Virus record (IMG/VR): IMGVR_UViG_3300035126_000575
Location: 1-46,015 of that record
Source of the DNA: a virus
Length of the DNA stretch: 46,015 nt
Strand: one strand, 5' to 3'
Of this stretch, positions 2,890-45,255 are shown one piece after another (within the stretch, counting starts at the first letter, position 1; the number at the start of each line of letters is the position of its first letter). Below the pieces are notes generated by a model. That model searched no databases. It saw nothing but the letters and a program-made list of their open reading frames with translations, and was not told the origin of the DNA. The position numbers were made by a program, and so were the translations under genes.

Positions 2890-2902
2890 CACGAAATACT
2901 TT

Positions 2903-2921: not shown

Positions 2922-2969
2922 ACTATATCAGTAATATCAAACATTAAAAATCAAAAACTAGCTAGTATA

Positions 2970-5876: not shown

Positions 5877-5900
5877 AATACTATTATATACTTATAACAT

Positions 5901-26478: not shown

Positions 26479-28931
26479 GTCTTACTAACATATATAACGA
26501 GAGATACGGAACTTCTGTTGCAGCGAACGATAATTACATAGCTGTCGGAAACCCTCCAACCTATGATTATAATCCAGCGGAGGGATTTTATAGAATTGGT
26601 GAAGTTAAATTGATTAAAAGAGACACATTTAATTCAAATTATTCATCATCATATACATTTACAAAAAGTTTAAACGCACAAACTATTTATAGCACTCGGT
26701 TTGGTGAATCAGTGGATTTATCTGATTACTTTTTAGCTGTAGGTAATAGTGTATTATCCGCAAGTGTTACAAAAGGTTCCTTTGTTGATGTTTATGTTAT
26801 CGACTCCAATTACAATGTTGTGAGTGGCGCTCTCGTACCGGATAACAATTGTGTAGATGAAAGCATTAACACACAAACTTATTCAAACACACCATTAGTC
26901 ACACTTACCGGATCAAATTCTTTTGGTACATCTGTTAGTATAACCAATAAATACCTTGCCATCGGATCTCCATCTGAAAATAGCAATCGTGGTAGAGTTT
27001 ACATTTATCAATTTTCTGCTTCTAAATACAAATTGGAATCTGTTCTGACTCCAGATCCAACTTTATACCCTAAACAACGAGGTTTTGGATATTCTATTTC
27101 GTTGGATAAAAAGAATCAAAATAGAATTGTTATTGGAAGTAATCAATTGTCTCAATCTAGAGTATATCTATATCAATCGTCATCCGGCGGTTGGGGATTA
27201 AAGCAAACATTTGTGCAAGTGACAGGATCACTTTCTGTTGAAAATAGCGTGTTCAATTGGTATCCAGTGTCATTGTTAAATTCTAACTATGGCCAGTCAG
27301 TTTCTATTTATGATAAGACCCTTGTAGTTGGATCACCAAATGATTTGGTTTATTATGAATACTCAGGATCAAATATTCAAAGACAAAGAGGCGCTTTTTA
27401 TGTATATTCTACAAATCCGTGTGATGAAAAACCAACCGGTAGTTACAATTTAATATCAAAACTTTATGGCGACGAAAACACATTCAAAGATAATTTGTTA
27501 GGACAATCTGTATGTGTGTTTGAAAATAAGATATTAATTGGTTCTCCAAAGAGATACTCCCCATTCTCCTCGCTTTTTATATCTGGATCTTTAAATTTTT
27601 ACGAAAACATTTCGGACGCAAATGATTTTGGAGCGTCAACTTTCTTAGGTCAAGTATTATACTATTCGATCACAGGATCTAGCTTAGTCAAAATGACCGA
27701 TTATCCGATTTCTAAACGTAAGGAAAGTGATAATAGTCCATTTCAAGCATTTGGAAGTGCCGTTTCAATCTATGGAAATAATTTGGTAATAGGATCTCCT
27801 GTACCATTATTGAGAGATTATTATTTAAACACCCCATATATTACAGAATCTGGAAGTATGGCGGATGCTAATTATAAACTAACATCTTCTTATTATGCCG
27901 AAGGATGTGATGTTACATCAAGTGTAGTATTTCTTCAAATAGAACAATCGGTCACTACAGATACAGGAGCTCCTGTGTATGTTGCACTATGTGAGGAAGT
28001 TCCTGATTCGCCATATACAGCAATTGAAGGAAGTGCTTTTATTTATAATTCATCCGATCTTCAAAAGAATTTTAACGTTGGAAATGTATTTTACAATAAT
28101 AACCGCGTTGTTATCAACAATACCGGAAGTGGTTTAAACTTAATAGCTAGAAATCCAGCTGATCCTACCAAGTCATACATATACATGGATTATGAAAGTC
28201 TCATACAACTAAATGAAAAACAATATATATGTACCATCGAACCAGGAGAGTTTAATATTTCAACAAATCCAACAGCTGTAACTGGCAGTGTTATTAACTA
28301 TGGTATTGTTAATAACACTGATTTTGATTTCAACAATTTAGATTTGATTTTAAGATACATAAACTATAAGTTGACTTCACCAAGAAGCGAACAATGGTGG
28401 AATAATATGGTATCAGGTGATGTTGAAACAAGCATTTTGTCTTTTTATTCTGGATCGTATGATATTACAACTCCATACACAGGATCTTATATTCAAGGAT
28501 CAAGATTCCAAGATAACAAATTAACTGAAGGCTTAAAGTGTATATTGGCTACAAAATCTTATGATGTTAATGGTGATGGTAAAGTAGATTTTCAAGATGG
28601 TAATGCTATTTGGAAATATTTTATTAATAATCTTACATTTCAAAATTATCAGAATTATACAAATCCAAATAGTAAGAGAAATACATACGATAGTATGATT
28701 AAGTTTTTGGATAATAACACTGGTAAAGGCAATAGAGATTATATAAAGAAAGAATTTTTCAATTACCCATATAGTTCATCCATCGATCCAACTGGCTCTT
28801 ATTTGGCACCATATATTACCCAAGTAGGTTTGTATAGCGGTGCAGATTTAGTGGCAATAGCTAAATTGGCACAACCAATTAAAAATAGTGGTGAGTTGCC
28901 TATTAATATTGCTGTTAAATGGGATACTTAA
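26475..28931 (+). CDS. FG-GAP beta-propeller adhesin-like protein with dockerin-like loop
   Basis: Seven FG-GAP-type blades are visible at about 11, 76, 150, 204, 272, 342 and 426 (YGTSVAANDNYIAVGNP, FGESVDLSDYFLAVG, FGTSVSITNKYLAIGSP, FGYSISL, YGQSVSIYDKTLVVGSP, LGQSVCVFENKILIGSP, FGSAVSIYGNNLVIGSP). They form an integrin-alpha-like seven-bladed propeller. Residues 697-708 (DVNGDGKVDFQD, then GNAIWKYFI) are a textbook dockerin/EF-hand calcium loop. The last 40 residues (ITQVGLYSGADLVAIAKLAQP) and EFNISTNPTAVTG (592-604) match the end of the 24673 protein. The start overlaps the previous stop. Host-surface binding is the likely job, inferred from domains. Confidence 0.82.
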   Translation: MSLTNIYNERYGTSVAANDNYIAVGNPPTYDYNPAEGFYRIGEVKLIKRDTFNSNYSSSYTFTKSLNAQTIYSTRFGESVDLSDYFLAVGNSVLSASVTKGSFVDVYVIDSNYNVVSGALVPDNNCVDESINTQTYSNTPLVTLTGSNSFGTSVSITNKYLAIGSPSENSNRGRVYIYQFSASKYKLESVLTPDPTLYPKQRGFGYSISLDKKNQNRIVIGSNQLSQSRVYLYQSSSGGWGLKQTFVQVTGSLSVENSVFNWYPVSLLNSNYGQSVSIYDKTLVVGSPNDLVYYEYSGSNIQRQRGAFYVYSTNPCDEKPTGSYNLISKLYGDENTFKDNLLGQSVCVFENKILIGSPKRYSPFSSLFISGSLNFYENISDANDFGASTFLGQVLYYSITGSSLVKMTDYPISKRKESDNSPFQAFGSAVSIYGNNLVIGSPVPLLRDYYLNTPYITESGSMADANYKLTSSYYAEGCDVTSSVVFLQIEQSVTTDTGAPVYVALCEEVPDSPYTAIEGSAFIYNSSDLQKNFNVGNVFYNNNRVVINNTGSGLNLIARNPADPTKSYIYMDYESLIQLNEKQYICTIEPGEFNISTNPTAVTGSVINYGIVNNTDFDFNNLDLILRYINYKLTSPRSEQWWNNMVSGDVETSILSFYSGSYDITTPYTGSYIQGSRFQDNKLTEGLKCILATKSYDVNGDGKVDFQDGNAIWKYFINNLTFQNYQNYTNPNSKRNTYDSMIKFLDNNTGKGNRDYIKKEFFNYPYSSSIDPTGSYLAPYITQVGLYSGADLVAIAKLAQPIKNSGELPINIAVKWDT

Positions 28932-29839: not shown

Positions 29840-30754
29840 ATGTTAGAAATTTCCGTAATAGATACGCTTACAAAATTGTTCAAGCACAAACCATCCATAC
29901 AAAAAGGTGGTGATGAAGCTCTATTTTTCTGTCCAAACTGCAAACATTACAAAAGAAAGTTAAACATTAACACCAACACTGGTTATTATCACTGTTGGGT
30001 TTGTAACTTTAGTGGAAAGAGTTTTTCTACTCTTCTAAAAAAGATTGGTGCGCCTAAAGAATATTTTGAGTTACTTTGCAAGCACAAGATCAAACACGAT
30101 ACATCAAAGAAGACTGAAATTAAGTTGATGTTGCCTGATGGATTCAAACCCTTATATAAGGATAGTTCCGACATCGAATATAAACACGCACTTTCATATT
30201 GTTTTAAACGAGGTTTAACAATCCATGAAATTGTAAGATATAATATCGGATATTGTGTAGATGGTAATTTTAGAAATAGGGTTATTGTGCCGTCTTATGA
30301 TGATAGTGGTAATTTAAATTTCTATTGTGGACGAGATTTCTATGAGAGTAAGATGAAGTATCGTTTGTGTGAAGCTACCAAAGATATAGTTGGGTTTGAA
30401 TTGTATTCCGATTTTAATCAACCAGTAACTCTTGTAGAAGGTGTATTTGATGCGTTTGCAGTTAAATACAATGCTATTCCATTGTTTGGTAAGAATTTGT
30501 CCAACAAACTGAAAATTAAACTAATGACGTATAGACCACCAAGAGTGAATGTGTTGTTGGATAATGATGCGTTAGTGTCCAGTTTAAGAATATGTGATTT
30601 TCTTTTACAAAACAATATAGATACATATTTGATCAGACTTGAAGGAAAAGATCCGAATGAAATCGGACATAAAAAAACTTGGCAATTTATAGATAGTTGT
30701 GATAGACTAACAGAAAGTGACTTGTATAGTCTCAAACTTAAAACCATTTTATGA
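29840..30754 (+). CDS. DNA primase (zinc ribbon plus Toprim)
   Basis: Primase makes RNA primers for lagging-strand synthesis. The 304-residue protein has an N-terminal zinc ribbon with C31, C34, C52 and C55 (CPNC ... HCWVCNFSG). A linker follows with GLTIHEIVRYNIGY and NRVIVPSYDDSGNLNFYCGR, then a Toprim domain with E200 (TLVEGVFDA), D241/D243 (VLLDNDA) and D271 (GKDPNEIG). It is short, like T4 gp61 (342 residues), with no fused helicase. Its stop overlaps the start of the next gene (ATGA), coupling it to the recombination nuclease. Confidence 0.9.
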   Translation: MLEISVIDTLTKLFKHKPSIQKGGDEALFFCPNCKHYKRKLNINTNTGYYHCWVCNFSGKSFSTLLKKIGAPKEYFELLCKHKIKHDTSKKTEIKLMLPDGFKPLYKDSSDIEYKHALSYCFKRGLTIHEIVRYNIGYCVDGNFRNRVIVPSYDDSGNLNFYCGRDFYESKMKYRLCEATKDIVGFELYSDFNQPVTLVEGVFDAFAVKYNAIPLFGKNLSNKLKIKLMTYRPPRVNVLLDNDALVSSLRICDFLLQNNIDTYLIRLEGKDPNEIGHKKTWQFIDSCDRLTESDLYSLKLKTIL

Positions 30755-33700
30755 TAGTATTAAAAAATACAAACCAGAAGATCGATAACGTCGTTCACAT
30801 CGCAGATATTCATATTCGTCTGACAAAAAGACACGATGAATATGTTTCTATTTTTCAGAAATTCTACGATTCTCTGGACAAAGTGAAAAAGGTAACTAAT
30901 TCTGTATTGGTTATTGCCGGAGATGTGTTTCACAACAAGTCTGATCTAAGCCCGGAATGTGTAAAAATCGGTAGTGATTTTTTGAAAAATTGTGCTGATA
31001 GAATTCCTACAATCTTAACCGCTGGTAATCATGATGCAACACTAGCTAATAAGGCTAGATTGGATTGCTTGACTCCAATCGTAGATAGTTTAAATCATCC
31101 AAATTTATATTATCTAAAGTCGAGTGACGTTTTTCGTTATGAAAACATATTATTTAATAACTTTAGTGTATTTGATGAACCAGATAAGTATATCAACTAT
31201 TACACCATTCCTTCACGATATAAAAATGAAACTGATCACCACATCGCTTTATTTCATGGACCAGTAAATAATGCCGTGACTGATGTTGGTTATATGGTTA
31301 GTAGCCGATCAATAACAAATGAATTGTTCGATGGACATCACATTGCAATGTTAGGCGATATTCATAAACATCAGATTTTACAAGAATTTGATGACGTTGA
31401 AAATAAACCTTTGATCGTATATGCTGGTTCTATGATTCAACAGAATCATGGAGAAGAAATCAAGGGTCATGGCTTTCTTCTGTGGGATCTAAAACGTAGA
31501 GTTTTTAAACACTACGAATTGATAAATGATTATGGTTTTTATACCATCGAAATCAATAAAGGTACATTGGTAACAGATATTTCTAATATTCCAAAGAAGG
31601 CTCGTGTTAGAACCATGTGTTATGAGTCTATTCCATCACAAGTAAAAGAGGTGATGAACGATTTGAAGAGTAAGTGTGATATTATAGAAAGTACATTCAT
31701 TCGTGTCGATGAACCAAACAATGATTTGACATTAAAGAATGGTCAGATTTTTGATATCCATAACATTTTTGATGTAGATTATCAAAACAAGTTAATAGAA
31801 GATAATCTTCTTGTTAAGAAAGTAGATAAAAATCTCATTGAAAAAGTTAAAGATCTAAACAAAACAATCAATAATCAGATTCCAAAGGATAAAGCTCCTA
31901 AGAACATTAGATGGAAGCCTAAGACCTTTGAATTTGACAATATGTTTAGTTATGGTGAAGGAAATTTCATTGATTTCACTAAATTAAAAGGAGCTATTGG
32001 TTTGTTTGCTCCAAATGCTAGCGGCAAGTCTAGTATTATGGACGCTTTGGCATTTTGTGTCTTTGATAAGTTCAGTAAAGGATATAAAGCATCTCATGTG
32101 TTGAACACACAAAAAATGAGCTTCAAATGTAAATTTAATTTTGAAGTAAATGGCGTTGATTATTTTATTGAACGTGAGGGCGAAGCCGATAAAAAGGGAA
32201 ATGTTAAAGTAAAGGTTAAGTTTTACAAGATTGAAAATGGAAATGAAGTTCCATTGAATGGAGAAGCTCGTCGTAGTACCAATGATATTATCAGAGACTA
32301 TGTTGGTACATATGAAGACTTTATTCTAACCGTACTTAGCATACAAAATAGTAAGGCTGGATCGTTTATTGATCTAGGTCAGACAGAACGTAAAGATCTC
32401 TTGTGTCAATTCATGGGATTGAATGTTTTTGATCAGCTATATACCATCGCTAATGAAAACTTTAAAGAAACCAATACTCTTCTAAAGAATGTTAGTAAGG
32501 ATCAATTAATAGAAAATTTGCAAATGGTTTCTGGTAGCATTGATCTAAATAATAGAAATATATCTCAATATAATTTGGATATCAAGGATCTTGAAGCCAA
32601 AAAAGAAGAACAAAATAACAAGTTATTAGAGTTGTCTAATGATATCGTTAAGACTGCAACTTTTGATTTTGATATTACTAAATTAGAGTCTGAAAAGACA
32701 CAATTGGAATCTAAGATCGACACATTTGAACATGATATAAATGAAAAGAAGGTTAAATTCTCTACAATTGAAAATCAACTTTCAGATTTATCCTCTTCTT
32801 TGAAGAGTTGTGAAAATATAGAAAATGATTACGATCAGTTTAAGATTTGTAAGGATAACGAGTCTAAAAAGTCTTCTGAAATTGAAAAACTAAAGGTAGT
32901 TGTTAAGAACAAGATAGATAAGTTAAAAAAGTTGGAAGACCACAAGTATGATCCTAATTGTACATTCTGCGTCAATAACGTGTTCGTAAAAGATGCTATT
33001 AAAACCAAGGAAGAACTTGAACTTGATAAAAACAAGGGCAAAATATTGGTAGAAGAATTTAATATTATTAAATCCAAGTTGGATTCATTTGGAGATATTG
33101 AATCTCGTTATAAGGAATGTCAACGTATTGATGGTGAAAGAGTTAAGTTGGAAAAAACCAAAGAAATTCTATCTACGTCAGTACTACGTGATGAAAATTT
33201 CAAGATTCGATTACAAAATGATTTGAATGGGGTAATTCAAAACATTGATACTTTTTATAAGAACAAAGATATTATTGAAAACAATTCGAAACTACTTGTT
33301 ATTGTTAACGAAGTAAAAGCTATTGTTAAAAATATCGAATCAGAGATTAAATTGGTTAATAATAAGCTGTTTAATTCTTCTACTGAAAAAGGAAAGTTGG
33401 AATTGCAACATAAGAATACTACTGAACAACTGAATAAAGTTAAAGAGTTGGAGGATTCATATGAAGCTTATAAATTGTATACAGGTATAATCAGTCGAGA
33501 TGGTATTCCATATGAAATCATCACAAAGACTCTGCCTGAAATTGAAAAGGAAGTTAATAATATTCTTCATCAATTGGTTGAATTCTCAATTACGCTTCAG
33601 ACAGATGGTAAGAATATCATGACAAATATTGTTTATGATGATAAACAATGGCCTCTTGAAATGGCTAGTGGTATGGAGAAGTTTATTTCTGGCTTGGCTA

Positions 33701-33939
33701 TAAGAGTCGCACTAATTAATATTAGTAATCTACCAAGACCAAATATCATTTGTATAGATGAAGGGTTTGGATGTGCTGATAGTGATCATTTAGGTCAAAT
33801 GGGTGCTTTATTTAATTATTTAAAACATCAATTCGATTTTATCTGGATAATTAGCCATCTAGATCAGATGCGAGATATGGTTGATAGTCAAGTAGAAATA
33901 AAAAAAGAAAATGGATATAGCAGAGTAGTATATAAATAA
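30751..33939 (+). CDS. SbcD-SbcC (gp47-gp46) fusion recombination nuclease
   Basis: In T4 gp47 (nuclease) and gp46 (SMC-like ATPase) are separate subunits of the Mre11/Rad50-type exonuclease needed for recombination-dependent replication. Here both are in one 1062-residue chain. Residues 1-330 carry the metallophosphoesterase motifs: HIADIHIR (D19, H21), AGDVFHNK (D58), AGNHD (N93, H94), and LGDIHKHQ. The ATPase then has Walker A GLFAPNASGKSS (about 420-431), long coiled coils, a zinc hook CTFC (C737, C740), signature MASGMEKFISG (about 971) and Walker B NIICIDEGFG (about 998). All catalytic parts look intact. Confidence 0.93.
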   Translation: MIVLKNTNQKIDNVVHIADIHIRLTKRHDEYVSIFQKFYDSLDKVKKVTNSVLVIAGDVFHNKSDLSPECVKIGSDFLKNCADRIPTILTAGNHDATLANKARLDCLTPIVDSLNHPNLYYLKSSDVFRYENILFNNFSVFDEPDKYINYYTIPSRYKNETDHHIALFHGPVNNAVTDVGYMVSSRSITNELFDGHHIAMLGDIHKHQILQEFDDVENKPLIVYAGSMIQQNHGEEIKGHGFLLWDLKRRVFKHYELINDYGFYTIEINKGTLVTDISNIPKKARVRTMCYESIPSQVKEVMNDLKSKCDIIESTFIRVDEPNNDLTLKNGQIFDIHNIFDVDYQNKLIEDNLLVKKVDKNLIEKVKDLNKTINNQIPKDKAPKNIRWKPKTFEFDNMFSYGEGNFIDFTKLKGAIGLFAPNASGKSSIMDALAFCVFDKFSKGYKASHVLNTQKMSFKCKFNFEVNGVDYFIEREGEADKKGNVKVKVKFYKIENGNEVPLNGEARRSTNDIIRDYVGTYEDFILTVLSIQNSKAGSFIDLGQTERKDLLCQFMGLNVFDQLYTIANENFKETNTLLKNVSKDQLIENLQMVSGSIDLNNRNISQYNLDIKDLEAKKEEQNNKLLELSNDIVKTATFDFDITKLESEKTQLESKIDTFEHDINEKKVKFSTIENQLSDLSSSLKSCENIENDYDQFKICKDNESKKSSEIEKLKVVVKNKIDKLKKLEDHKYDPNCTFCVNNVFVKDAIKTKEELELDKNKGKILVEEFNIIKSKLDSFGDIESRYKECQRIDGERVKLEKTKEILSTSVLRDENFKIRLQNDLNGVIQNIDTFYKNKDIIENNSKLLVIVNEVKAIVKNIESEIKLVNNKLFNSSTEKGKLELQHKNTTEQLNKVKELEDSYEAYKLYTGIISRDGIPYEIITKTLPEIEKEVNNILHQLVEFSITLQTDGKNIMTNIVYDDKQWPLEMASGMEKFISGLAIRVALINISNLPRPNIICIDEGFGCADSDHLGQMGALFNYLKHQFDFIWIISHLDQMRDMVDSQVEIKKENGYSRVVYK

Positions 33940-33943: not shown

Positions 33944-34933
33944 ATGAATATATCAGACACCATCATTGTTAAAAATAAAAAATTAAGTTTCACGATAAAT
34001 GACCACGGGGAGTTTGTACTTTATAAGGACGATGGTTTTAGTATCGAATATTTGATTCTAATAAAAAGTTTAGATACAGGTTTAACATCGAATATGTTAT
34101 ATATAAACATGTCTGATCATTGTGTTAGTTGGACATATAATTGGTGTGTAAAACCAGCAACATTAAAAAACAATCATCCAGGAATAAAATTAGAAATTTA
34201 TTATTATGATCATGATAGAAATGTAAATTTAATTTATAAAAAAAACTATCGATTTGATTTAACTCGTTTAGATATTAAACTCAAATCAAATCAATATGAT
34301 ATCGCATACGATCCATTTTTTTATTTTTTATATGATCAGGAATTCAAGTCGTTGTGTAATATTAAAGAAGATGATATAGTTTATGATTTAGGCGCTAATA
34401 TAGGATCATTTTCGTTGGTTTGTAAAAACTTTGATGTTAAAAAAGTATATGCTTTTGAACCAAACACATCGACATTTGATTGTCTCGTATATAATACAGA
34501 TAGATATGGTGAAAATGTTACATGTTTTAAAAAAGCAATATCAAATTCATTTAAAAAAGTGTCATTTGGAAATTATTCGAATAATAATTTAGAGGATAAA
34601 ACATGTGGTTGTTCAATTGTAACCGATGATAAAAATCTAGAAACAGTATCCGCTATAAATCTTGAGTTATTTACATATGCAAATGAGCTTGAATTACCAA
34701 CATATCTTAAAGTTGACATAGAAGGTGCTGAATATGAATTTTTTGATTCAATCAGTGATACTTTTTTAAAAAATTGTCATACTATATTTTTAGAATTTCA
34801 TGACAGAGATGACAGATTAAATAAAATTATTGACAGATTAACTATGTTAAATTACAAAATGTTTTTTCATGGTGATGAAAAGTATGTATTAAGCCAGACT
34901 ATGGGAACTATATTTTTTGTTAAACAATTATGA
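33944..34933 (+). CDS. FkbM-family methyltransferase with N-terminal beta module
   Basis: FkbM enzymes O-methylate sugars or polyketides with S-adenosylmethionine. Residues about 147 onward hold DIVYDLGANIGSFSLVCKNF (the SAM-binding loop), VYAFEPNTSTFDCL, and then TYLKVDIEGAEYEFFDSI and IFLEFHDRDD, all diagnostic of the family. The first 120 residues are a separate beta-rich module (IEYLILIKSLDTGLTSNMLY, HCVSWTYNW) that resembles modules in the neighbouring genes. It is the first gene of the cassette, and its stop overlaps the next start. The target is probably a sugar made or attached by the downstream glycosyltransferases. Confidence 0.87.
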   Translation: MNISDTIIVKNKKLSFTINDHGEFVLYKDDGFSIEYLILIKSLDTGLTSNMLYINMSDHCVSWTYNWCVKPATLKNNHPGIKLEIYYYDHDRNVNLIYKKNYRFDLTRLDIKLKSNQYDIAYDPFFYFLYDQEFKSLCNIKEDDIVYDLGANIGSFSLVCKNFDVKKVYAFEPNTSTFDCLVYNTDRYGENVTCFKKAISNSFKKVSFGNYSNNNLEDKTCGCSIVTDDKNLETVSAINLELFTYANELELPTYLKVDIEGAEYEFFDSISDTFLKNCHTIFLEFHDRDDRLNKIIDRLTMLNYKMFFHGDEKYVLSQTMGTIFFVKQL

Positions 34934-36921
34934 AGAAGTTACTATTCATCACACCACATTTATCAACTGGTGGATTGCCACAATTTTTGTTAAAAAAAAT
35001 ACAAGCACTAAATGATTATTATGAAATACATTGTATAGAATATAATGATCATACAGGAGGTGTATTGGTTGTTCAGAAAGAACAAATTCAAAAGTTGTGT
35101 AATAACAGATTTTATGTATTAGGTGAAAATAAACACGATATATTGAAATTAATAGATAAAATAAATCCCGATATAATTGCTTTAGAAGAAATGCCTGAAT
35201 ATTTCATGGATTTCTCCATTTCTTCTCAAATTTATAATGAATCGAGACGTTATTTCATAGTAGAAACTTCACATGATAGTAGTTTTAATCCAAATAATAA
35301 AGTGGTTTATCCTGATCATTTTACATTTGTGAGTAAATTCCAAGAAAATAATGTAAAATCTCTACCAGTTAAATCAAAAGTTATAGAATATCCGGTTGAA
35401 GTAAAAATACGCCAAAATAGAGAAGTTGGCCTTCAAAAATTAGGACTTGATGTTAAAAAAAGACATGTGTTACATGTTGGATTATTTACTCCAAGAAAAA
35501 ATCAAAAAGAATTTATTGAATATGCCAGATCGATGGAGAATGAGAATATACAATTCCATTGTGTTGGAAATATGGCGGATAATTTCAAATTTTATTGGGA
35601 ACCATTGTTAATTGATTTGCCTAAGAATGTAAAAGTGTGGGGTGAAAGAAAAGATGTGCACAACTTTTATAGTTGTATGGATTTATTTTTGTTTACCAGT
35701 AGAGGTCACATAAATGACAAAGAAACTGCTCCCATCGTAATCAAAGAAGCAATATCATATAACATACCAAGTTTATTTTATAATCTTCCTGTATATCTGG
35801 ATCGATACTCTTGTTATGAAAATGTAAAATATTTGAATGAAACTAGTTTTGATGATAATTTAAATTTAATACGTGATACAATATATGGTTCTAAATCGTC
35901 TGTAAATGTAGATGACAAAGATTTTATAGCAGTTATTTCTACTCATCCAAATTATGATGCTGTCGAAGAAACCACTATAAAATCTATTAAACAAATTAAA
36001 AAGGCTGGATATAAAGTTATTTTAACATCACACTATCCAGTCAGTACTAAATTACAATCATTAGTTGATCATTGTATATATGATAGTAATAATCCATCTT
36101 TGACTCATAATTTTTATAAAACGTGGTCTTATGTAAATCAATATCACGATATTAAAATATATCTACCATCGTGTGGATCGGATGTATATCATGGATTGGG
36201 TGTAGCTCTAAATTATTATAATGGGATTAGTTTGGCTAATAAGTTAGGATATAAAAATGTGCTTGCGTTTAACTATGACGTAGTTATTTTAGAAAAAGAC
36301 TTCAATAAGTTAGATATTGTAAAAAATATAATGCAAACAAAAAAGGGATTTTTCTTTTATGATAAAGCTTTAGAAGGAGACACACTAAAGACCGTATTTC
36401 ATGCTATTAATACAGACTTTTATCTTAACCTATTTGAATACTTCACACCAAACACGTATGAGAAATTTGTTAAGGAAATGAACATATCAAATGGTCTTGA
36501 ACAATTTTATTACAATCGTGTTATAAATAAAAAGAAAGATTTATATATTGATTATAAAAATAATGAAGAGAGTTTTTTCAACAATAGTGAACTTAATATG
36601 TTTTCTATGTGTGAATATCTATCAGTTTTACCAATTCCAAATCAAAATAAGTTTGTATGTTTGAGCAACTTTAATAATAAAATAGATAATAAAATAAATG
36701 AGATATGCGTTTATGAGAATGATATTTTAATCAAACGAGAATTTGTACAAATAACAAAATCTGGTTGGTGGCATATAGAGGTTGATTTTATTCCAAACTG
36801 CCGGTATAAAGTATTGAATACGATTTTTGACAAAGACAAATCAAGTATTATAAGAGAAATTTCATCCGAGTTTTCATCGATTGATGAATTAAAAAATAAT
36901 GGACATTTTATAGCTAAGTAA
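34930..36921 (+). CDS. Two-domain glycosyltransferase
   Basis: Residues 1-330 form a GT-B (GT4-like) enzyme: FITPHLSTGGLPQFLLKKIQ, VLHVGLFTPRKNQKEFIEYA, VKVWGERKDVHNFYSCMDLFLF and TAPIVIKEAISYNIPSLFY with the E-x7-E region. Residues about 335-560 are a second domain starting FIAVISTHPNYDAVEETTIKSI and containing LGYKNVLAFNYDVVILEKDF. It looks like a GT-A-type fold with an N-x-D where a DxD would be expected. The final 70 residues are a beta module (ENDILIKREFVQITKSGWWHIEVDF). Two linked transferases suggest successive sugar additions. The acceptor is unknown. Confidence 0.82.
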   Translation: MKKLLFITPHLSTGGLPQFLLKKIQALNDYYEIHCIEYNDHTGGVLVVQKEQIQKLCNNRFYVLGENKHDILKLIDKINPDIIALEEMPEYFMDFSISSQIYNESRRYFIVETSHDSSFNPNNKVVYPDHFTFVSKFQENNVKSLPVKSKVIEYPVEVKIRQNREVGLQKLGLDVKKRHVLHVGLFTPRKNQKEFIEYARSMENENIQFHCVGNMADNFKFYWEPLLIDLPKNVKVWGERKDVHNFYSCMDLFLFTSRGHINDKETAPIVIKEAISYNIPSLFYNLPVYLDRYSCYENVKYLNETSFDDNLNLIRDTIYGSKSSVNVDDKDFIAVISTHPNYDAVEETTIKSIKQIKKAGYKVILTSHYPVSTKLQSLVDHCIYDSNNPSLTHNFYKTWSYVNQYHDIKIYLPSCGSDVYHGLGVALNYYNGISLANKLGYKNVLAFNYDVVILEKDFNKLDIVKNIMQTKKGFFFYDKALEGDTLKTVFHAINTDFYLNLFEYFTPNTYEKFVKEMNISNGLEQFYYNRVINKKKDLYIDYKNNEESFFNNSELNMFSMCEYLSVLPIPNQNKFVCLSNFNNKIDNKINEICVYENDILIKREFVQITKSGWWHIEVDFIPNCRYKVLNTIFDKDKSSIIREISSEFSSIDELKNNGHFIAK

Positions 36922-36923
36922 TT

Positions 36924-39065
36924 ATGAAAATAGTACAAGTACATTTAGGTTTATTGCCAATTCCACCAAATGGTTGGGGAGCCGTTGAGAAAATTATTTG
37001 GGATTATCATCAACAATTAAACTCTAAGGGTTTACATTGTGAGATAAAGTATTTGAATGATGTTAAGTATAATGATAATACAATTGTACACACACACGTT
37101 GCAAACTTAGCCAACGAGTGTTATGAACGTGGTATACCATATATCTTCACATTACATGATCATCATGCGTTTTTATATGGAAAAGATTCTGATGTTTTTA
37201 AACAAAATTTAAAGGCTATAGAAAATAGTATTATATCAACCTGTCCAGCAAAATATTTGGTTGATTATTTCGGAAGCAAAAAGTTGCGTTATTTTTCTCA
37301 TGCTGTAAATACTAATTTATTTAAATTTAAAAATTATGTCAAGGGTGACTACAAACTATTATGCGTTGCTAATAATGGTTATGCTAATAACCAATCATAT
37401 GACAGAAAAGGGTTTAAATACGCAATACAATCTGCTAAAGAGTTAAACCTTCCTATTACAATTGCTGGGCCTAGTAATAATAAAAAGTTTTTTGAAACAC
37501 TTGACCCATCATTAAATGATTATGAAAAGTTAACTAAAGTGTTTGATTTGGATGAAGATGGACTCATTGAACTTTATAATAAACACCACATATTTATTCA
37601 CGCATCGGAGTTGGAGGCTGGACATCCAAACTTAACTCTATTGGAAGCTATGTCATGTGGATTACCTGTAATTGGTACGTTTGAAAATAATAAATACGAT
37701 GGAATGATTGTTGTTGATAGGGATGTAAATCAGATTAAAGATTCTATTGTTAAAGTAATTTCGAACTACGAACAATATCAATCTGAAGCTTTAAAAGCCG
37801 CTACGAACAATTCTTATAATATACGTGTTGATCAATTGATAGATTTATATAAAGAATATACAAGTAAACTATTTGCCAAAAATTTTATTGATGTATATTC
37901 TGACTTAAATAAGAACATGATTAAGGTTAATAATAAAGTTAACGTTGAATATTCATTCAATGATAATGCATTTGTACAAGTTACTAAGTGTGTTAATAAA
38001 AATGAAACATTCAATGTCAAATTTAAGAATCCTACAACCGATGAAGTTCTATATGAAACCAATTTACAAGATGGTTGGTGGGGTCGTTGTGATTATACAT
38101 ATTTTATTCCATACAATTTGGTTGTTAAAAGTAATTTAACAAACGATATTGTTTTAAACTACGATTTGGATCTTGAGGATAAAAATGTTTTAATAGAATA
38201 TGAAACCAACGCATTAGGCGATCAATTGTGTTGGATGCCGATAGCTGAACAATTTAGAAAAAAACATAAATGTAATTTATTCTTAAAGATAAGGCTCCGT
38301 GAATTATTTCAAAATAAATATAAAGATATAAATTTTATAAATTTTGATGAATCTGTTCCTAACTTATTTGCAACATATAAACCTGGGTGGTATGTTGATA
38401 AAAATTCTATAAATTCAATGAGATGTAGAAATGATATCAGAAAACAACCTTTACAAAAAGTTGCTAGTGACTATTTGGGTTTAAGTTATATTCCAGAAAG
38501 GCCAATGTTGGATTTTAAATTAATGCCATCGCAATTTAAAAAACCATATGTTACTATTGCAACTCAAAGTACAGCACAAGCGAAGTATTGGAATCATAAG
38601 GGTGGGTGGGATATAATAGTAGGTTATTTGAAATCAAAGGGATTTGATGTAGTGTGTATAGATAAAAATAGTTCATTTGGAAATAAGAATCATATGAATT
38701 ATATACCAGACAATGCTATTGATTTAACAGGAAATCATTCTTTGGAAGAACGTATTAATCAGATCTATCATAGTTCATTTTTTATAGGTCTTCCATCAGG
38801 ATTATCATGGTTAGCTTGGTCAATAGGAAAGCCTGTAACATTAATTAGCGGATTTTCTCATGATTATACAGAATTTGAAACTCCATATAGAGTTCAAAAT
38901 AAAAATGTGTGTAATGGATGTTGGAACGATAATTATTTTGACAGAGGTGATTGGTTATGGTGTCCAAAATCCGATAAAAAGGAAATGTTTGAATGTACAA
39001 AATCAATTACTCCACAAATGGTTATAGAAAAAATTGATAGTCTTATAAAAGATAATAATTTATGA
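36924..39065 (+). CDS. GT4 glycosyltransferase fused to autotransporter-type heptosyltransferase
   Basis: Residues 1-330 are a GT4 enzyme: LLPIPPNGWGAVEKIIWDY, HTHVANLANECYERG, and SELEAGHPNLTLLEAMSCGLPVIGT. A beta module follows (about 345-415: NPTTDEVLYETNLQDGWWG). From about 420 the protein matches the BAHT family (TibC/Aah-type protein O-heptosyltransferases): VLIEYETNALGDQLCWMPIAEQ, TIATQSTAQAKYWNHKGGWD, IGLPSGLSWLAWSIGKPV, and the C-terminal cysteine motif C663, C666, C680, C691 (VCNGCWND, WLWCP, FECTKSITPQMV). In TibC these four cysteines hold iron. Family members transfer heptose to serines of autotransporter repeats. The gene lies within the tight cassette. Confidence 0.85.
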   Translation: MKIVQVHLGLLPIPPNGWGAVEKIIWDYHQQLNSKGLHCEIKYLNDVKYNDNTIVHTHVANLANECYERGIPYIFTLHDHHAFLYGKDSDVFKQNLKAIENSIISTCPAKYLVDYFGSKKLRYFSHAVNTNLFKFKNYVKGDYKLLCVANNGYANNQSYDRKGFKYAIQSAKELNLPITIAGPSNNKKFFETLDPSLNDYEKLTKVFDLDEDGLIELYNKHHIFIHASELEAGHPNLTLLEAMSCGLPVIGTFENNKYDGMIVVDRDVNQIKDSIVKVISNYEQYQSEALKAATNNSYNIRVDQLIDLYKEYTSKLFAKNFIDVYSDLNKNMIKVNNKVNVEYSFNDNAFVQVTKCVNKNETFNVKFKNPTTDEVLYETNLQDGWWGRCDYTYFIPYNLVVKSNLTNDIVLNYDLDLEDKNVLIEYETNALGDQLCWMPIAEQFRKKHKCNLFLKIRLRELFQNKYKDINFINFDESVPNLFATYKPGWYVDKNSINSMRCRNDIRKQPLQKVASDYLGLSYIPERPMLDFKLMPSQFKKPYVTIATQSTAQAKYWNHKGGWDIIVGYLKSKGFDVVCIDKNSSFGNKNHMNYIPDNAIDLTGNHSLEERINQIYHSSFFIGLPSGLSWLAWSIGKPVTLISGFSHDYTEFETPYRVQNKNVCNGCWNDNYFDRGDWLWCPKSDKKEMFECTKSITPQMVIEKIDSLIKDNNL

Positions 39066-40705
39066 AAATTGTAGGAAGTTATATCGGCGCGCATGATGTG
39101 GGTTTTTCTTTAATTGAAAATAATCAAATACTTGCGTGTTATACAGAGGAGAGATTTTCACGTATAAAATCTGCATATGCTGCTGGAGCATTTCCATCAC
39201 ATAGTTTTGAAGCAATTCAAAAAGATTTTGATTTTGATATAAAGGATCCAAACGTAAAATTCGTAGTCGCAAAGCCTTTTATTCATCATAAACATCATGA
39301 GATTATAAATGTATTAAAAAATAAAAGTATAAAATTAATAGGACATCATTACTCACACGCATGTGGCGCATACTATACATCTGGATTTAATGATAATACA
39401 TTAGTTGTATCATACGACGGTGGTGACATAGGAGATGATAATTGGACTGAATTGAATATTTCTAACTATCAAAAGTACAATTGGTTCAATAATTTAAATG
39501 ATAATCAATCAGTATCATACGTAGTTAAAAATGGTAAATTGATTGAAGTAGGTGAAAGACTAAAACACGGAAGTATTGCAAATATGTGGTATTTGATGTG
39601 TTATATATTTGGTTTAACTCCATTAAAGGACGAAGGAAAAATAATGGGTCTCGCTGCACAAGGTAAGTTTGATCATAAAATTCATAGTATATTAAATTTC
39701 TTTGTTAAGAATGATATGATAAAGGCGACTTGTACCATTGAAAATAAATTTAAACAACTTTTACATGGTTTAAATCAAGAAGACGCTTTGGATTTAAAAA
39801 GAAATTTAGCGTATAATTTACAATATATTACAGAAAATACTCTTTTAAATCATATTAAGTCTTTGTATGACCAATATGGTCCATTTGATAATATTTGTTT
39901 AGCAGGCGGTGTATTTGCAAATGTAAAGTTAAATCAAAAAATAAATGAATATCTACCATTTAAAAATATATGGGTATATCCAGCGATGGGAGATGAAGGA
40001 TTGTCTTTGGGTTCCGCAATTGCATATGGAGTAGAACTTGGAGAATTTACAAATCGTAGAATTAAAAATGTTTTTTTTGGAAAAAAACACTCTGAGAACG
40101 ATATACAAAAAGATATTAATAATTTTTCATTCAAGTTTGGTAAAAACATAGTAGAAGAAAAATTAGACTTTGATAATGTTGCGAATTATTTAGTTGATGG
40201 AAAGGTCGTTGGGATTTTTGATGGAGCAACTGAGTATGGACCAAGAGCATTAGGATCTAGATCTATAGTTGTTGAACCAACTAGATTAGAAACGCACGCG
40301 TATATTAATAAAAGATTAAAACGAGATGAGATAATGCCATTTGCACCAATCATTATGGAAGAACATATTGAGGATATATGTCACGTATATAAATCTAAGA
40401 ATACCGCCGAATTTATGACATTGTGTTATACCGTTCGTGAAGAATGGGCCAACAAAATTCCAGCAGTCATAAATTTTCATGATAACACTGCTAGACCACA
40501 AGTAGTTAATAAAGATCGTCACTCTTTATTTCATAAAATACTTAGCAAATTCAATGAAAAAACAAATATACCGGTATTGATGAATACAAGCTTTAATGGT
40601 CATGGTGAACCTATAATAAATTCACCAAACGATGCTCTGTCTCACTTGTCGGAAGGTACTATTGATTTATTGATCATAAACAATAAAATTTATAAACTAG
40701 TATGA
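39062..40705 (+). CDS. Carbamoyltransferase (NodU/CmcH/TobZ family)
   Basis: These enzymes move a carbamoyl group from carbamoyl phosphate, through carbamoyl-AMP, to a hydroxyl of a sugar or antibiotic. The 547-residue protein has both domains. The N-terminal Kae1-like part has GAHDVGFSLIENNQILACYTEERFSR, the HHYSHACGAYYTSGF metal site, VVSYDGGD, LAGGVFANVKLNQKI and GDEGLSLGSAIAYG. The C-terminal YrdC-like part has FDGATEYGPRALGSRSI, NKRLKRDEIMPFAPII, RPQVV and NTSFNGHGEPI. Length and motifs are complete. It overlaps both neighbours by four bases. In this context it probably carbamoylates the sugar built by the glycosyltransferases. Confidence 0.93.
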   Translation: MKIVGSYIGAHDVGFSLIENNQILACYTEERFSRIKSAYAAGAFPSHSFEAIQKDFDFDIKDPNVKFVVAKPFIHHKHHEIINVLKNKSIKLIGHHYSHACGAYYTSGFNDNTLVVSYDGGDIGDDNWTELNISNYQKYNWFNNLNDNQSVSYVVKNGKLIEVGERLKHGSIANMWYLMCYIFGLTPLKDEGKIMGLAAQGKFDHKIHSILNFFVKNDMIKATCTIENKFKQLLHGLNQEDALDLKRNLAYNLQYITENTLLNHIKSLYDQYGPFDNICLAGGVFANVKLNQKINEYLPFKNIWVYPAMGDEGLSLGSAIAYGVELGEFTNRRIKNVFFGKKHSENDIQKDINNFSFKFGKNIVEEKLDFDNVANYLVDGKVVGIFDGATEYGPRALGSRSIVVEPTRLETHAYINKRLKRDEIMPFAPIIMEEHIEDICHVYKSKNTAEFMTLCYTVREEWANKIPAVINFHDNTARPQVVNKDRHSLFHKILSKFNEKTNIPVLMNTSFNGHGEPIINSPNDALSHLSEGTIDLLIINNKIYKLV

Positions 40706-41229
40706 AAACAAAAAATAATTTTTTTAACGTAAAGTATACAGACTCATTTATTAAACTAACATTTAATGGTGTACCCGACTATTATTTTAATCATACACTT
40801 CATTATGTAATTTCAAGTAAGGAACATGAATTTTATTCAACCGAAACTCCAGAAATTGGTTATTGGTATTTACGCACAAATATAAAATCATTACAATTTG
40901 ATTATATCAAACTCTATGCATTCAGTATGGACGATGGTATGAATCTAATAGATGAGTATGATTTTAACATAAAAGATTATAATTTTATGTTTAATTTAAA
41001 AACCAATAATCTCAATGATTCCAGAGTTTGGGGATCTTACATAGATTTATATAACCAAACACATGGTACTAATTTTAAGTATTATGTAAATATGACTGAG
41101 TTTAATGATGAGCTTGACAATTTTGAAATTTCCAGAGAAAAGTATAATACAATCTATAATTTAGAGTTATCTGACTTAAATAATGTTCCATCGGTCGAAA
41201 TTATCAAAAAATTTATAGGCAGTTTATAA
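40702..41229 (+). CDS. Hypothetical protein with the cassette's beta module (175 aa)
   Basis: The first 90 residues (FFNVKYTDSFIKLTFNGV, YVISSKEHEFYSTETPEIGYWYLRTNI, DYIKLYAFSMDDG) have the same strand pattern and aromatic spacing as the modules attached to the three upstream enzymes. The rest is helical and acidic, ending NNVPSVEIIKKFIGSL. It starts inside the carbamoyltransferase stop (ATGA) and closes the cassette before a weak terminator. It may be a free-standing acceptor-binding or scaffolding subunit; this is inference. Confidence 0.7.
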   Translation: MKTKNNFFNVKYTDSFIKLTFNGVPDYYFNHTLHYVISSKEHEFYSTETPEIGYWYLRTNIKSLQFDYIKLYAFSMDDGMNLIDEYDFNIKDYNFMFNLKTNNLNDSRVWGSYIDLYNQTHGTNFKYYVNMTEFNDELDNFEISREKYNTIYNLELSDLNNVPSVEIIKKFIGSL

Positions 41230-41251
41230 AATTTCAAAAGATATAATAAAT

Positions 41252-41270
41252 AGTGAGATGTTCACTTTTT
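41252..41270 (+). terminator. Weak intrinsic terminator after the glycan cassette
   Basis: AGTGA (41252-41256) pairs with TCACT (41262-41266) around a five-base loop, followed by TTTT. The stem is short, so termination may be partial. The sheath promoter box follows at 41278. Confidence 0.5.
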
Positions 41271-41277
41271 CTGGCAC

Positions 41278-41285
41278 TATTTATA
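41278..41285 (+). promoter_or_regulatory. Late-promoter-like box of the tail sheath gene
   Basis: TATTTATA lies 31 bases before the sheath ATG, with a ribosome site GAAAGG (41303-41308) in between. This is the normal promoter, leader, ribosome site layout. It is the best evidence that the recurrent TATTTATA box is a promoter element and not a translation signal. Confidence 0.6.
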
Positions 41286-41316: not shown

Positions 41317-44300
41317 ATGCCAATACAAGAAGGTGGAAGATTTTCACCAGAACAAAATATAGTAAGTCCTGGTGTATTTACCAGAGAAAATGACCTATCA
41401 GGGCTAGCCCAAGGCGTAGCCAATATCGGAGGTGCCATCGTAGCACCATTTTCAGACGGACCAGCATTCTTCCCAGCAAGAATGACCGAAGTAGCAATGC
41501 TCGAACAACGTTTCGGCGTAGCTGATGGAGTTTATTATGGTCCATACACAGCCAAAGAGTATCTAATTCAACAAGGTGTAGTAACCGTTGTACGTATCGG
41601 TGGTCTAACCGGATACTGGCAAAAGAATCCATTGGTCGTATATGCTGAACCAGGTTACTGGAACAGAAATAGTGACTTGGGTGCTTTGACCACATCATCA
41701 TTCATGTACTTAGATAGTGATAATTATACATCAAATCTAATTCTTGAATATAGTTCATCAACACTAGCTTCAAGCCAAACTGGAATTCGTGGTGTTACTC
41801 CTTCTGGCACTATATCTTCTTCTATAAATGTACAACGTGCCACAAATACGGAAATTGAACAATTTCTTGTATCAATCAATTGGCCAAATGCATCAAATAG
41901 TTCAACATTATCCGCGTCATTAGCCGCATCTGGTAGTAAAGGTAAATTGTTCAAGATTGCAACTACAAGAAATAGCTATATTTTCAGTGCTTCTGTAGTA
42001 CAACAAGGTTTGAAGGTACAACCACCAGGTGGTTCTAGTGAATATGTATTAGCTAACTTTGATTATGATAAATCGATAATTCAAACTTATATATCAGCAT
42101 CAGTAGGATCAACGAAGTATGTTTTATGGGCTACAAGTAATTACTTAGTAAGTACAAGACCATATTATAGCTATTTAACCGCATCTTATACTCTAAGTGG
42201 TAATGATGTAACTTATGGATTAGTATTTGGTAGATATGCCGCAAACAACGATCTTAATTTTAGTACGGCAAGTATAAGCAGTTCAAAGTCAAATGCATTA
42301 TTTGTTTACAGACACGATACATCACGTTTGAGACTAAATGGTGTAGTTAATGGTAAGTTTGCTCCAAAGGCTGCTGTAAGTAACTATCCAGCTGGATACA
42401 ATGGTACAGGTGGATCATTAAGTGGTTCAGTATTGTATGCTGGAAAACAAGTAAATCTTGGAACAGTAACTACAACAAATAGTTCTGGTGCTAACACATA
42501 CTTGTTTAGACGTATTTCAGGATCGACTCCAGCATCTGGAGTATTTGCTGGTTATTATTATCTAAGTTCGAGTGTACAAAATCAAGATGTAAGTCCAGAA
42601 GTTAAGATTTCTACAGCTTTCAACGAAAGTTCTGAAACTGTTGCTTACTTCTCAGCATCAATGACTTCAAGTGCCAAGATTTCATTAGATTATGATACAA
42701 CCACATTTGATGTAAATGGTACTTTATCATTATATAGCGCAAGTGTAAAATCTATTAGAAGTTCAACAAGTTGTGGTTCATCACTACAATTCTTGGGTCT
42801 AGTAGGTGGCGCTTATGGTGATTTCAATGGTACATTCACCAGTCAAGACAATTCCGGTGGTGATCCATGTAATCCAAATACATCTGCAAGAACCAAGATG
42901 GTATTGGCTGTTTTGAATAATACTCAAAATGGTTCAACCCAGTTCAATAACAGATACGAAGTGTTTGGTTTTGATACATCAACTTTGAGTCAATTGACAA
43001 GTTCAGTATTTCCATATAAAGGACTAATCAATCCAAACGAAAATACTTATCAATTAATTTTGAAGTATAACTTCGCAAATGATGATGGTACTACAAGTGC
43101 TGGTACATATGGTTATTATGACTTCACCCTAAACGAAAGCGATAATAATTATATTGCTAACGTATTCGGATTCGATCCTACTGCTGGTAATCCTGCTAAG
43201 CAAGTTGCCGGTCAAAAGGTAGAAGCTGCTTACAACTACTTGTTGTTCAATGATAGCATTCAACGATTCATCGCTGAAAAGACTCGTCCAAGTGCAGAAG
43301 GTGGTGGTTGGAAACTATATGCCAAAACTGCTCCAGAAACCGGATTTGCAGTTGGAGAACCTCTAAAGTTTGTAGATCAATATAGTACAAACTTGAATGC
43401 TGGTGATAGCCAATTTGGTATTACCAATGCATATACTCCATGGATCTATTCCCAAAAGATTGCTCCATTCAAGGGTAGTGCAGATGCAGCTTCTACACCA
43501 ACTAAGTTCCAATTATTTAAGGTACACACTTTGAGTGATGGTACATTAAGCAACAAGAAGTACAAGATTGAAATCAGTAACGTTAAGTTGGCTGGTACAG
43601 TCCCAGGCAGTGATTGGGGTTCATTTACACTAGCAGTTCGTGCTTATAGTGATACTGATAAACGTCCAAAGTATTTGGAAATTTATCAAAACTTGAATCT
43701 AAATCCTGAATCTGCTAACTTCGTTGCTCGCAGAATTGGTGACAGATATGCTTATATTACCTTCGCTGGTAAAATCATTGAGTTTGGTACATATACCAAC
43801 TTGAGTCAATACATCAGAATCGAAATGGCTGATGGTCTATATCCAGAAGTATCGGTTCCATACGGATTTGAATCATATTCAACTCCAGTTGCTGGTACTT
43901 TGGCAGATATTATTCCACCAGTAAGATACAGCAAAGCAAGTATCTGGTCATTGGCTCCTGGTAAATATGCTTCTGGTACAGTCTTCAACGACGTTCCACA
44001 AGCTGACGACGAATTGGTATCATTGTATCCAACATCATCTGCTAATGTAGGTGTATATAATGATACATATCAATACTTCAAGCCACTACCAAGTAGTGTA
44101 AATGGTATCAACATTGACTTCGACTTGGAAGACAAGACTTGGGGTACTGATAGTGCTAAGTTCTATGCAAATGGAACTGGTTCACTACTATCTCCAACAT
44201 TGAGTGGTAGTATTCCAAGCAACTATGATCCAGTTAACGAATCAACTTATGTTAAACTACGTAAGTTCTTGGTTGGATTCCAAGGTGGATTTGAAGGTCA

Positions 44301-45255
44301 ATGGCCAGCAATTCCAATCAATATAGGTAGTGATATTACCGCTGGTAATACACAAGGTCTAGATTGTACAAACATCAATAGTCCAGGTAGTATTGCTTAT
44401 AAACAAGCAATTGCTGCTCTAGGTAATGCTGATGAATTTGATATCAATTTGATCGTATTGCCTGGTATCTTCTGTGAACAACACAGCTATGTAACTGATA
44501 TTACAATCGATATGTGCGAAGCTCGTGGCGATTGTTTCTATATCATGGATAACATTGTGTTCCCAGCAAGTAACCAAACCGTTGGATTGATTGATGCCGC
44601 TGTCAACAGCGTAGCAACAATTGATAGTAACTACGTAGGTACATATTATCCATGGGTTAAGATCCTAGATACAAATACCAACAAGGTTATCAGTGTTCCA
44701 CCTTCAGTAGTATTGCCAGCAGTATATGCTGCTAACGACAATGCTGCTGCCGAATGGTACGCACCAGCTGGTCTAAATCGTGGTGGTATTCCAACCGCAG
44801 TACAAGTACTTGATCGTTTGACACATAGTGAACGTGACACCTTGTATGAAGGTCGTGTAAATCCAATCGCAGCATTCCCTGGCCAAGGTATTTGTGTATG
44901 GGGTCAAAAGACTCTACAAATCGCCCCAAGTGCTTTGGATCGTATCAATGTTCGCCGCTTGTTGATCAACTTGAAGAAGTTTGTCGCAAGTTCAAGCAAC
45001 TACTTGGTATTCGAACAAAATGTTGCTTCTACAAGAAATCGTTTCTTGAGTATCGTAAATCCTTACTTGGAGTCTGTACAACAACGTAATGGTATCTACG
45101 CTTATCAAGTTAAGATGGATGAACAAAACAATACTCCTGACCTAATTGATAGAAATATCCTATATGGTCAAATCTTCATCCAACCAACTAGAACTGCTGA
45201 ATTCATTATCCTTGACTTCAACATACTTCCAACGGGCGCTCAATTTTCTTCCTAA
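41317..45255 (+). CDS. 18: Tail sheath protein (gp18-like) with a very large insertion
   Basis: The sheath polymer contracts to drive the tube through the envelope. The N-terminus NIVSPGVFTRENDLSGLAQG, PFSDGPAFFPARMTE and VVTVVRIGGLTGYW is typical of T4-type sheaths. So is the C-terminus (VQVLDRLTHSERDTLYEGRVNPIAAFPGQG, then INVRRLLINLKKFVASSSNYLVFE and QPTRTAEFIILDF). The total is 1312 residues against about 659 in T4 gp18. Residues about 115-925 are extra: beta-rich, Ser/Thr-rich, with many S-A-S and S-G-S turns, so probably surface domains. Conserved core resumes near INIDFDLEDKTWG. A strong ribosome site and promoter box precede it, and a terminator follows. Confidence 0.93.
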   Translation: MPIQEGGRFSPEQNIVSPGVFTRENDLSGLAQGVANIGGAIVAPFSDGPAFFPARMTEVAMLEQRFGVADGVYYGPYTAKEYLIQQGVVTVVRIGGLTGYWQKNPLVVYAEPGYWNRNSDLGALTTSSFMYLDSDNYTSNLILEYSSSTLASSQTGIRGVTPSGTISSSINVQRATNTEIEQFLVSINWPNASNSSTLSASLAASGSKGKLFKIATTRNSYIFSASVVQQGLKVQPPGGSSEYVLANFDYDKSIIQTYISASVGSTKYVLWATSNYLVSTRPYYSYLTASYTLSGNDVTYGLVFGRYAANNDLNFSTASISSSKSNALFVYRHDTSRLRLNGVVNGKFAPKAAVSNYPAGYNGTGGSLSGSVLYAGKQVNLGTVTTTNSSGANTYLFRRISGSTPASGVFAGYYYLSSSVQNQDVSPEVKISTAFNESSETVAYFSASMTSSAKISLDYDTTTFDVNGTLSLYSASVKSIRSSTSCGSSLQFLGLVGGAYGDFNGTFTSQDNSGGDPCNPNTSARTKMVLAVLNNTQNGSTQFNNRYEVFGFDTSTLSQLTSSVFPYKGLINPNENTYQLILKYNFANDDGTTSAGTYGYYDFTLNESDNNYIANVFGFDPTAGNPAKQVAGQKVEAAYNYLLFNDSIQRFIAEKTRPSAEGGGWKLYAKTAPETGFAVGEPLKFVDQYSTNLNAGDSQFGITNAYTPWIYSQKIAPFKGSADAASTPTKFQLFKVHTLSDGTLSNKKYKIEISNVKLAGTVPGSDWGSFTLAVRAYSDTDKRPKYLEIYQNLNLNPESANFVARRIGDRYAYITFAGKIIEFGTYTNLSQYIRIEMADGLYPEVSVPYGFESYSTPVAGTLADIIPPVRYSKASIWSLAPGKYASGTVFNDVPQADDELVSLYPTSSANVGVYNDTYQYFKPLPSSVNGINIDFDLEDKTWGTDSAKFYANGTGSLLSPTLSGSIPSNYDPVNESTYVKLRKFLVGFQGGFEGQWPAIPINIGSDITAGNTQGLDCTNINSPGSIAYKQAIAALGNADEFDINLIVLPGIFCEQHSYVTDITIDMCEARGDCFYIMDNIVFPASNQTVGLIDAAVNSVATIDSNYVGTYYPWVKILDTNTNKVISVPPSVVLPAVYAANDNAAAEWYAPAGLNRGGIPTAVQVLDRLTHSERDTLYEGRVNPIAAFPGQGICVWGQKTLQIAPSALDRINVRRLLINLKKFVASSSNYLVFEQNVASTRNRFLSIVNPYLESVQQRNGIYAYQVKMDEQNNTPDLIDRNILYGQIFIQPTRTAEFIILDFNILPTGAQFSS

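Follow-up and report, generated by a model that had tools for sequence, protein, structure and literature searches.

What purpose is served by five genes for sugar-modifying enzymes that lie between the recombination genes and the tail sheath gene of a phage? The question is raised by a 46,015-bp linear fragment of a tailed phage (IMG/VR record IMGVR_UViG_3300035126_000575; hereafter the window, the whole stretch of DNA that was analysed), in which five intact open reading frames (ORFs) occupy positions 33944–41229 of the plus strand between a gp46/47 gene and the tail sheath gene. On balance, the product of this cassette is probably a small, modified glycan attached to a virion protein, and the likeliest acceptor is a tail-fibre shaft that is collagen-like and rich in Ser/Thr. 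An earlier note, made from the sequence alone, had named virion proteins, host lipopolysaccharide (LPS) and phage DNA as possible targets; the first is favoured by the protein O-heptosyltransferase family to which one enzyme belongs, by the position in a tail region and by a link to collagen-like fibre genes, while LPS is the weaker candidate and DNA found no support.

A TibC-Type Heptosyltransferase

The third gene (36924–39065, plus strand) encodes a fusion protein in which a GT4 glycosyltransferase domain [amino acids (aa) 1 to ~325] is followed by an O-heptosyltransferase domain of the TibC/AAH type (BAHT; aa ~336–706). The latter matches TIGR04414, the model for autotransporter strand-loop-strand O-heptosyltransferases, over aa 336–706 (E-value 5.1e-100; 335 bits, cut-off 200), and the TibC structure PDB 4rap at 1.8e-72, covering TibC residues 23–384. 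In TibC, D110 (the catalytic base), the donor-site residues T226, K230, R286 and W305 and the iron-finger cysteines are important, F265 and V266 serve the dodecamer, and P300 governs donor stereoselectivity (PMC4358343). Among 44 phage sequences D110, T226, K230 and W305 are kept in all and R286 in 42 (in the window, in order of TibC position, D433, T550, K554, R610 and W629); the iron-finger cysteines (TibC 339, 342, 358, and 370; window C663, C666, C680, and C691) are kept in all 44, and the P300 position varies (P, G, S). Since the catalytic, donor-site and iron-finger residues are conserved, the heptosyltransferase chemistry of gene 3 looks retained. No autotransporter domain was found among the window proteins scanned with Pfam. 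A scan with gene 3 returned 62 loci. A bacterial origin was ruled out: 84,980 genomes held just two full-length relatives, both in Flavobacteriales metagenome-assembled genomes (MAGs) on contigs with phage-type fibre or tail genes.

Association with Collagen-Like Fibre Genes

In 12 loci a collagen-like gene, mostly Ser/Thr-rich, adjoins the cassette or lies within a few kb of it; these loci belong to very different phages and include the two Flavobacteriales-MAG contigs, the isolated Microcystis phage Mel-JY01, a 735-kb phage and eight more. In the two closest long relatives of the window a collagen-like ORF follows the sheath gene on the same strand, at distances of 23 and 28 kb, and Pfam collagen repeats occur in the fibres of close relatives, of which the G001 fibre ends in a Peptidase_S74 fibre chaperone. 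A 303-kb relative in which the sheath gene directly follows gp46/47 (an empty-site phage; see below) encodes an S74 fibre protein that lacks collagen.

The association was tested by searching contigs for DNA that encodes (Gly-[ST]-[ST])3, with the reversed pattern as control. Among contigs with the cassette the pattern matched 18 of 23 in one set and 7 of 16 in another, vs. 0 of 14 contigs without it, and the reversed pattern gave zero matches. For contigs of at least 60 kb, tracts were found in 23/30 with and 0/8 without the cassette (Fisher's test, 1.3e-4). A reverse test, in which IMG/VR was scanned for the tract alone, independently of the cassette, yielded 38 contigs of at least 40 kb; 19 of them carry a heptosyltransferase, compared with 0 of 23 random contigs (1.3e-5), and the tract lies within 10 kb of the heptosyltransferase in 10 of these 19, where 3.8 were expected (p = 0.0009).

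Two observations concern the collagen-like genes themselves. In Mel-JY01 (PP395634.1) a collagen-like frame of 1016 aa is open on the plus strand (2–3049) and overlaps an annotated minus-strand coding sequence (739–2298), the record being probably misannotated there. Near-perfect 9-bp DNA repeats coding for GTS/GTT runs (G036:816–910 and G026:16263–16372) are likely slippage-prone and may generate variation in fibre length.

Composition and Integrity of the Cassette

The first gene (33944–34933, plus strand) encodes an FkbM-family S-adenosylmethionine (SAM)-dependent methyltransferase, probably a sugar O-methyltransferase (TIGR01444, 3.8e-23, 82.5 bits, cut-off 37.7; PF05050, 2.3e-11), with a conserved SAM motif, VYDLGANIGSFSL. 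Its N-terminus is a β-rich domain of ~130 aa; comparison of this domain with the TibC barrel, of which it might conceivably be a copy, gave only 9% in hhalign.

The second gene (34930–36921, plus strand) encodes a two-domain glycosyltransferase. The N-terminal GT4 domain matches PF00534 (Glycos_transf_1; 4.5e-12, 46.3 bits), as does that of gene 3 (43.8 bits; cut-off 26.4). The C-terminal domain (aa ~346–579, followed by a small C-terminal tail) looks GT-A-like in its AlphaFold2 model [predicted local distance difference test (pLDDT) 84.7] and has an invariant Asp; its PDB matches are weak (E ~1e-3 at best) and mix GT-A with nucleotidyltransferase folds, GnT-I and COLGALT1 among them. Of viral structures, the one that matches best belongs to a phage protein to which UniProt gives the name "Glycosyltransferase Aah/TibC". 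This second half forms a family of its own, occurring alone, fused to GT2, or within a 1227-aa protein of Mel-JY01.

The fourth gene (39062–40705, plus strand) encodes a NodU/TobZ/NovN-type sugar O-carbamoyltransferase with both domains above cut-off (PF16861, 4.6e-53, 179.7 bits, cut-off 27; PF02543, 1.7e-32, 113.6 bits, cut-off 24) and with matches to phrog_1601 (1.8e-94) and to PDB 7xb6, NovN, GdmN and TobZ. The fifth (40702–41229, plus strand) encodes a 175-aa protein that is probably a truncated heptosyltransferase paralogue, comprising by sequence comparison the barrel and the first β-α-β of the catalytic domain: it matches in one register the BAHTs of three unrelated phages (L067, L146, and L148; E 5e-5, 8e-5, and 1e-3), hhalign gave 40% where negative controls reached 1% at most, and its gene (dN/dS, the ratio of nonsynonymous to synonymous substitution rates, 0.05–0.35) stands where other phages carry a 270–290-aa heptosyltransferase paralogue. 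Its AlphaFold2 model (pLDDT 41) was used for strand order only, and profile searches of the PDB with this protein and with the C-terminal domain of gene 2 returned nothing useful.

The families of genes 1–4 are thus those that the earlier note had proposed, and the tight packing that it described was seen at every junction: ATGA overlaps of 4 bp at 34930, 39062 and 40702, and gaps of 2 bp at 36922 and of 4 bp behind gp46/47. That the genes serve one pathway, as this packing had suggested, is supported by natural fusions of the same domains. In Mel-JY01 GT4, GTA, methyltransferase and BAHT form a single chain, and other phages have BAHT-FkbM, GT4-BAHT and FkbM-GT4-BAHT proteins or FkbM joined to the GT4 of gene 2.

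Purifying selection acts on each of the five genes (dN/dS 0.04–0.35). The order gp46/47-FkbM-GT4/GTA-GT4/BAHT-(carbamoyltransferase-175-aa protein)-sheath recurs in many independent metagenomes, and the cassette junctions recur in independent contigs at 50–100% identity; a chimeric assembly, the prospect that the earlier note had raised against itself, is thereby ruled out. The set of five is not fixed, since the carbamoyltransferase and the 175-aa gene are confined to the window's own clade (a scan with the carbamoyltransferase returned this clade only).

Besides the sheath gene, the window holds genes for gp25, gp6, PhoH, transfer RNAs and a transfer-messenger RNA (tmRNA). The tmRNA gene (1528–1912; tag AEDNVVSYDFSYDDVVALAA) adjoins eight tRNA genes. 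An FG-GAP repeat protein (26475–28931; PF14312, 4.8e-23), an integrin-like propeller unusual for a phage tail region, is encoded 5′ of the replication genes. Matches to a late-promoter motif, TATAAATA, were scattered over both strands and were uninformative.

A Recombining Island with an Empty Site

The cassette, which a group of large freshwater phages carries, is modular: the methyltransferase and the carbamoyltransferase are gained and lost, and the cassette recombines apart from its flanks. Between the window and one relative (L013) the flanks are 93–97% identical and the cassette genes just 51–76%, four of them being nearer to a different relative (L003); in another close relative (L014) the FkbM gene is exactly missing. 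In 17 loci of a sheath-anchored sample the site is empty, the sheath gene following directly after gp46/47 with the leader hairpin kept. These phages form one clade on the sheath tree, that is, a single change, and no heptosyltransferase was found elsewhere in the empty-site members that were searched, including the 303-kb contig. The separate origin that the earlier note had read from AT-richness is thus borne out as recombination and as presence or absence; the compositional difference itself is real but modest (GC content: cassette 28.0%, gp46/47 30.9%, sheath gene 38.3%). Terminase-type relatives have a bigger and more varied island between gp46/47 and the terminase gene. The cassette lies 5′ of the sheath gene not only in the lineage of the window but also in a distant phage contig from a Winogradskyella MAG, and in the 735-kb phage it is ~10 kb from the sheath and tube genes.

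The left flank of the site is a gp47-gp46 (SbcD-SbcC) fusion gene (30751–33939, plus strand; phrog_77, 7.4e-47; phrog_100, 3e-19) and the right flank is the gene for a 1312-aa tail sheath (41317–45255, plus strand; phrog_23, 9.2e-65). The right edge is marked at 41245–41284 (plus strand) by an inverted repeat in the sheath leader, AATAAATAGTG...CACTATTTAT (also ATAAATAG...CTATTTAT), that is kept in cassette-bearing and empty-site phages alike; this repeat, in the window and in the leaders of L081–L102, is possibly an RNA-processing or regulatory hairpin. In the 303-kb empty-site phage (L083) gp46/47 (G013:36357–40520) has ~325 extra residues after gp47 residue ~97, possibly an intein. ORFs with an intein-like start (LTPSGYQSFSGLRK...CSKEHKF) are found just 5′ of the portal gene at L138:15683–16867 and L149:18060–19253, and perhaps represent a split or intein-bearing terminase.

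Proposed Pathway and Alternatives

From these sequence data we infer an activity, a sugar, an acceptor, a timing and a benefit for the cassette. The TibC-like domain would take a sugar from a nucleotide sugar of the host (by homology, heptose from ADP-heptose) and attach it to hydroxyl groups of Ser/Thr; the GT4 domains of genes 2 and 3, together with the GT-A-like domain, would lengthen the glycan, which the FkbM enzyme would O-methylate and the carbamoyltransferase O-carbamoylate. Because all of the enzymes look soluble (no transmembrane segments were found in the five cassette proteins), glycosylation would occur in the cytoplasm, prior to or during the assembly of fibres, which would be made late in infection. 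Since this module recombines at the junction of gp46/47 and sheath, related phages differ in the genes that it contains and presumably also in the glycan. The benefit may be stability of the shaft, shielding or altered contact with the host.

Several findings weigh against this reading. The thumb-tip residues F265 and V266 of TibC are not conserved (the window has N589 and H590, and relatives have mostly polar residues), and for this reason the dodecamer contact of gene 3 may be lost or rebuilt. Known acceptors of TibC/AAH are β-helical autotransporters, not collagen. HldE domain II and GmhA were not found in the records of 14 relatives; phage-encoded heptose synthesis was rejected on this evidence, and the donor would have to come from the host. 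There is no collagen-like gene in the window, which ends 760 bp past the sheath gene; tracts are lacking in 7/30 cassette-bearing contigs and the heptosyltransferase in half of the tract-bearing ones, all of these contigs being fragments. Finally, the sheath tree holds two independent presence/absence contrasts, which agree and are too few for significance.

With only two contrasts, lineage or host could explain part of the association. The most credible alternative, although unlikely, is that the cassette and the collagen-like genes are not related as enzyme and substrate and occur together only because the phages have a lineage or a group of hosts in common, or because both sit in one hypervariable region for host interaction. 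In its favour, the tract-bearing contigs are a biased set, mostly from large phages, and both gene types are found in variable regions. Lineage alone does not predict adjacency or few-kb distances in 12 loci of very different phages, nor the excess of close spacing, and it is spacing and adjacency, given the two contrasts on the sheath tree, that outweigh the raw presence/absence count.

It is also improbable, and ranks next, that other virion proteins are glycosylated, such as the giant sheath or the Ser-Gly-rich proteins encoded at 4515–7361 and 17164–19059, the collagen link being indirect. The cassette adjoins the sheath gene in most relatives, some cassette-bearing contigs lack collagen-like tracts, and the Ser/Thr/Gly-rich short-repeat proteins of the window (SGSFSGSF, GNVTGNV) broadly resemble strand-loop-strand acceptors. 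The sheath, however, is 1323–1333 aa long in empty-site phages and 570 aa in the Winogradskyella-MAG phage contig; its length is therefore independent of the cassette, and the idea that phages have the cassette because their sheath is giant was rejected.

A third proposal, that the cassette alters the host surface (LPS or capsule) in the course of infection and so blocks adsorption of competing phages or re-adsorption of progeny, would fit the usual content of surface-polysaccharide loci, in which FkbM methyltransferases, GT4 enzymes and sugar carbamoyltransferases are frequent. Some distant cassettes also hold an aminotransferase and a hexapeptide acyltransferase, and glycosyltransferases of pelagimyophage host-recognition clusters have been read in this way (PMC7029224). 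The proposal is nonetheless doubtful, ranking behind the previous two: the heptosyltransferase domain comes from a protein-modifying family and has an intact active site, the window cassette has no flippase, polymerase, ligase or membrane protein, and an association with collagen-like fibres is not predicted. Hypermodification of the phage DNA is highly improbable; phage glycosyltransferases are often DNA-modifying (PMC12619734), but no base-modifying gene was found in the annotated part of the window's gene set, the family of the heptosyltransferase modifies protein, and the linkage is to tail genes.

Relation to Known Systems and Implications

The components are known singly: TibC-type enzymes, glycosylation of phage virions, cyanophage carbamoyltransferases and collagen-like phage fibres. 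The phage enzyme shares with TibC/AAH (TIGR04414; PDB 4rap, 4rb4) full-length domain homology, the catalytic Asp, the donor-site residues and the four-Cys iron finger; it differs in its fusion to GT4, in its thumb tip, in the lack of an autotransporter annotated nearby and in its place beside collagen-like fibre genes in tail regions. The carbamoyltransferase belongs to the same family as NodU, NovN, TobZ and the cyanophage "Nol-like" proteins (phrog_1601; 145 phage records match, mostly cyanophages), but is at most ~29% identical and lies within a glycosylation cassette. In giant viruses, too, collagen is glycosylated, sugars being placed on Gly-X-Y repeats by a virus-encoded enzyme of a different family from those of the cassette. 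Bacillus BclA (cited in PMC3368898) likewise has sugars on Gly-X-Y repeat residues, and there too the enzyme families differ; the recombinant collagen fibre EPclA of an E. coli prophage was reported to be unglycosylated.

Mycobacteriophages also encode glycosyltransferases that act on virion proteins, and their capsid and tail tube subunits carry the glycans C-terminally; the summary of this work in PMC12619734 (Freeman et al., 2023, as described there) makes no mention of a TibC-type enzyme, FkbM methylation, carbamoylation or a collagen-like acceptor. Moraphages are large freshwater phages with sheath, gp25, gp6, PhoH, primase, exonuclease and four core glycosyltransferase groups to which no function has been assigned (PMC12619734). 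By gene content the window phage is probably a moraphage or a member of a neighbouring lineage, TerL, MCP and PolB lying outside the window; the moraphage paper mentions no heptosyltransferase, FkbM enzyme, carbamoyltransferase, gp46-sheath island, empty site or collagen link (PMC12619734). In the literature searched, no recombining cassette of these enzymes linked to collagen-like fibres was found. The view of the earlier note that no phage system with this set had been described holds to that extent, and is narrowed by the published core glycosyltransferases of a similar freshwater jumbo-phage lineage (PMC12619734) and by the UniProt phage protein already named for Aah/TibC.

More broadly, though with somewhat less than even confidence, a widespread phage system may be proposed in which a TibC-type enzyme, together with GT4, a methyltransferase and optionally a carbamoyltransferase, hyperglycosylates long, collagen-like (Gly-Thr-Ser)n tail-fibre shafts and in which exchange of modules alters the glycan. 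The glycosylation of fibre shafts is directly testable in the isolate Mel-JY01, which encodes both the GT4-GTA-methyltransferase-heptosyltransferase fusion and collagen-like ORFs. If the proposal is true, a hypervariable island and core glycosyltransferases that were published without a function would be explained, and the collagen-like repeats of phages would be carriers of glycans; an enzyme family known from virulence autotransporters would extend to viruses, and many large environmental phages, including those of 735 and 548 kb, would run their own protein O-glycosylation of fibre shafts.

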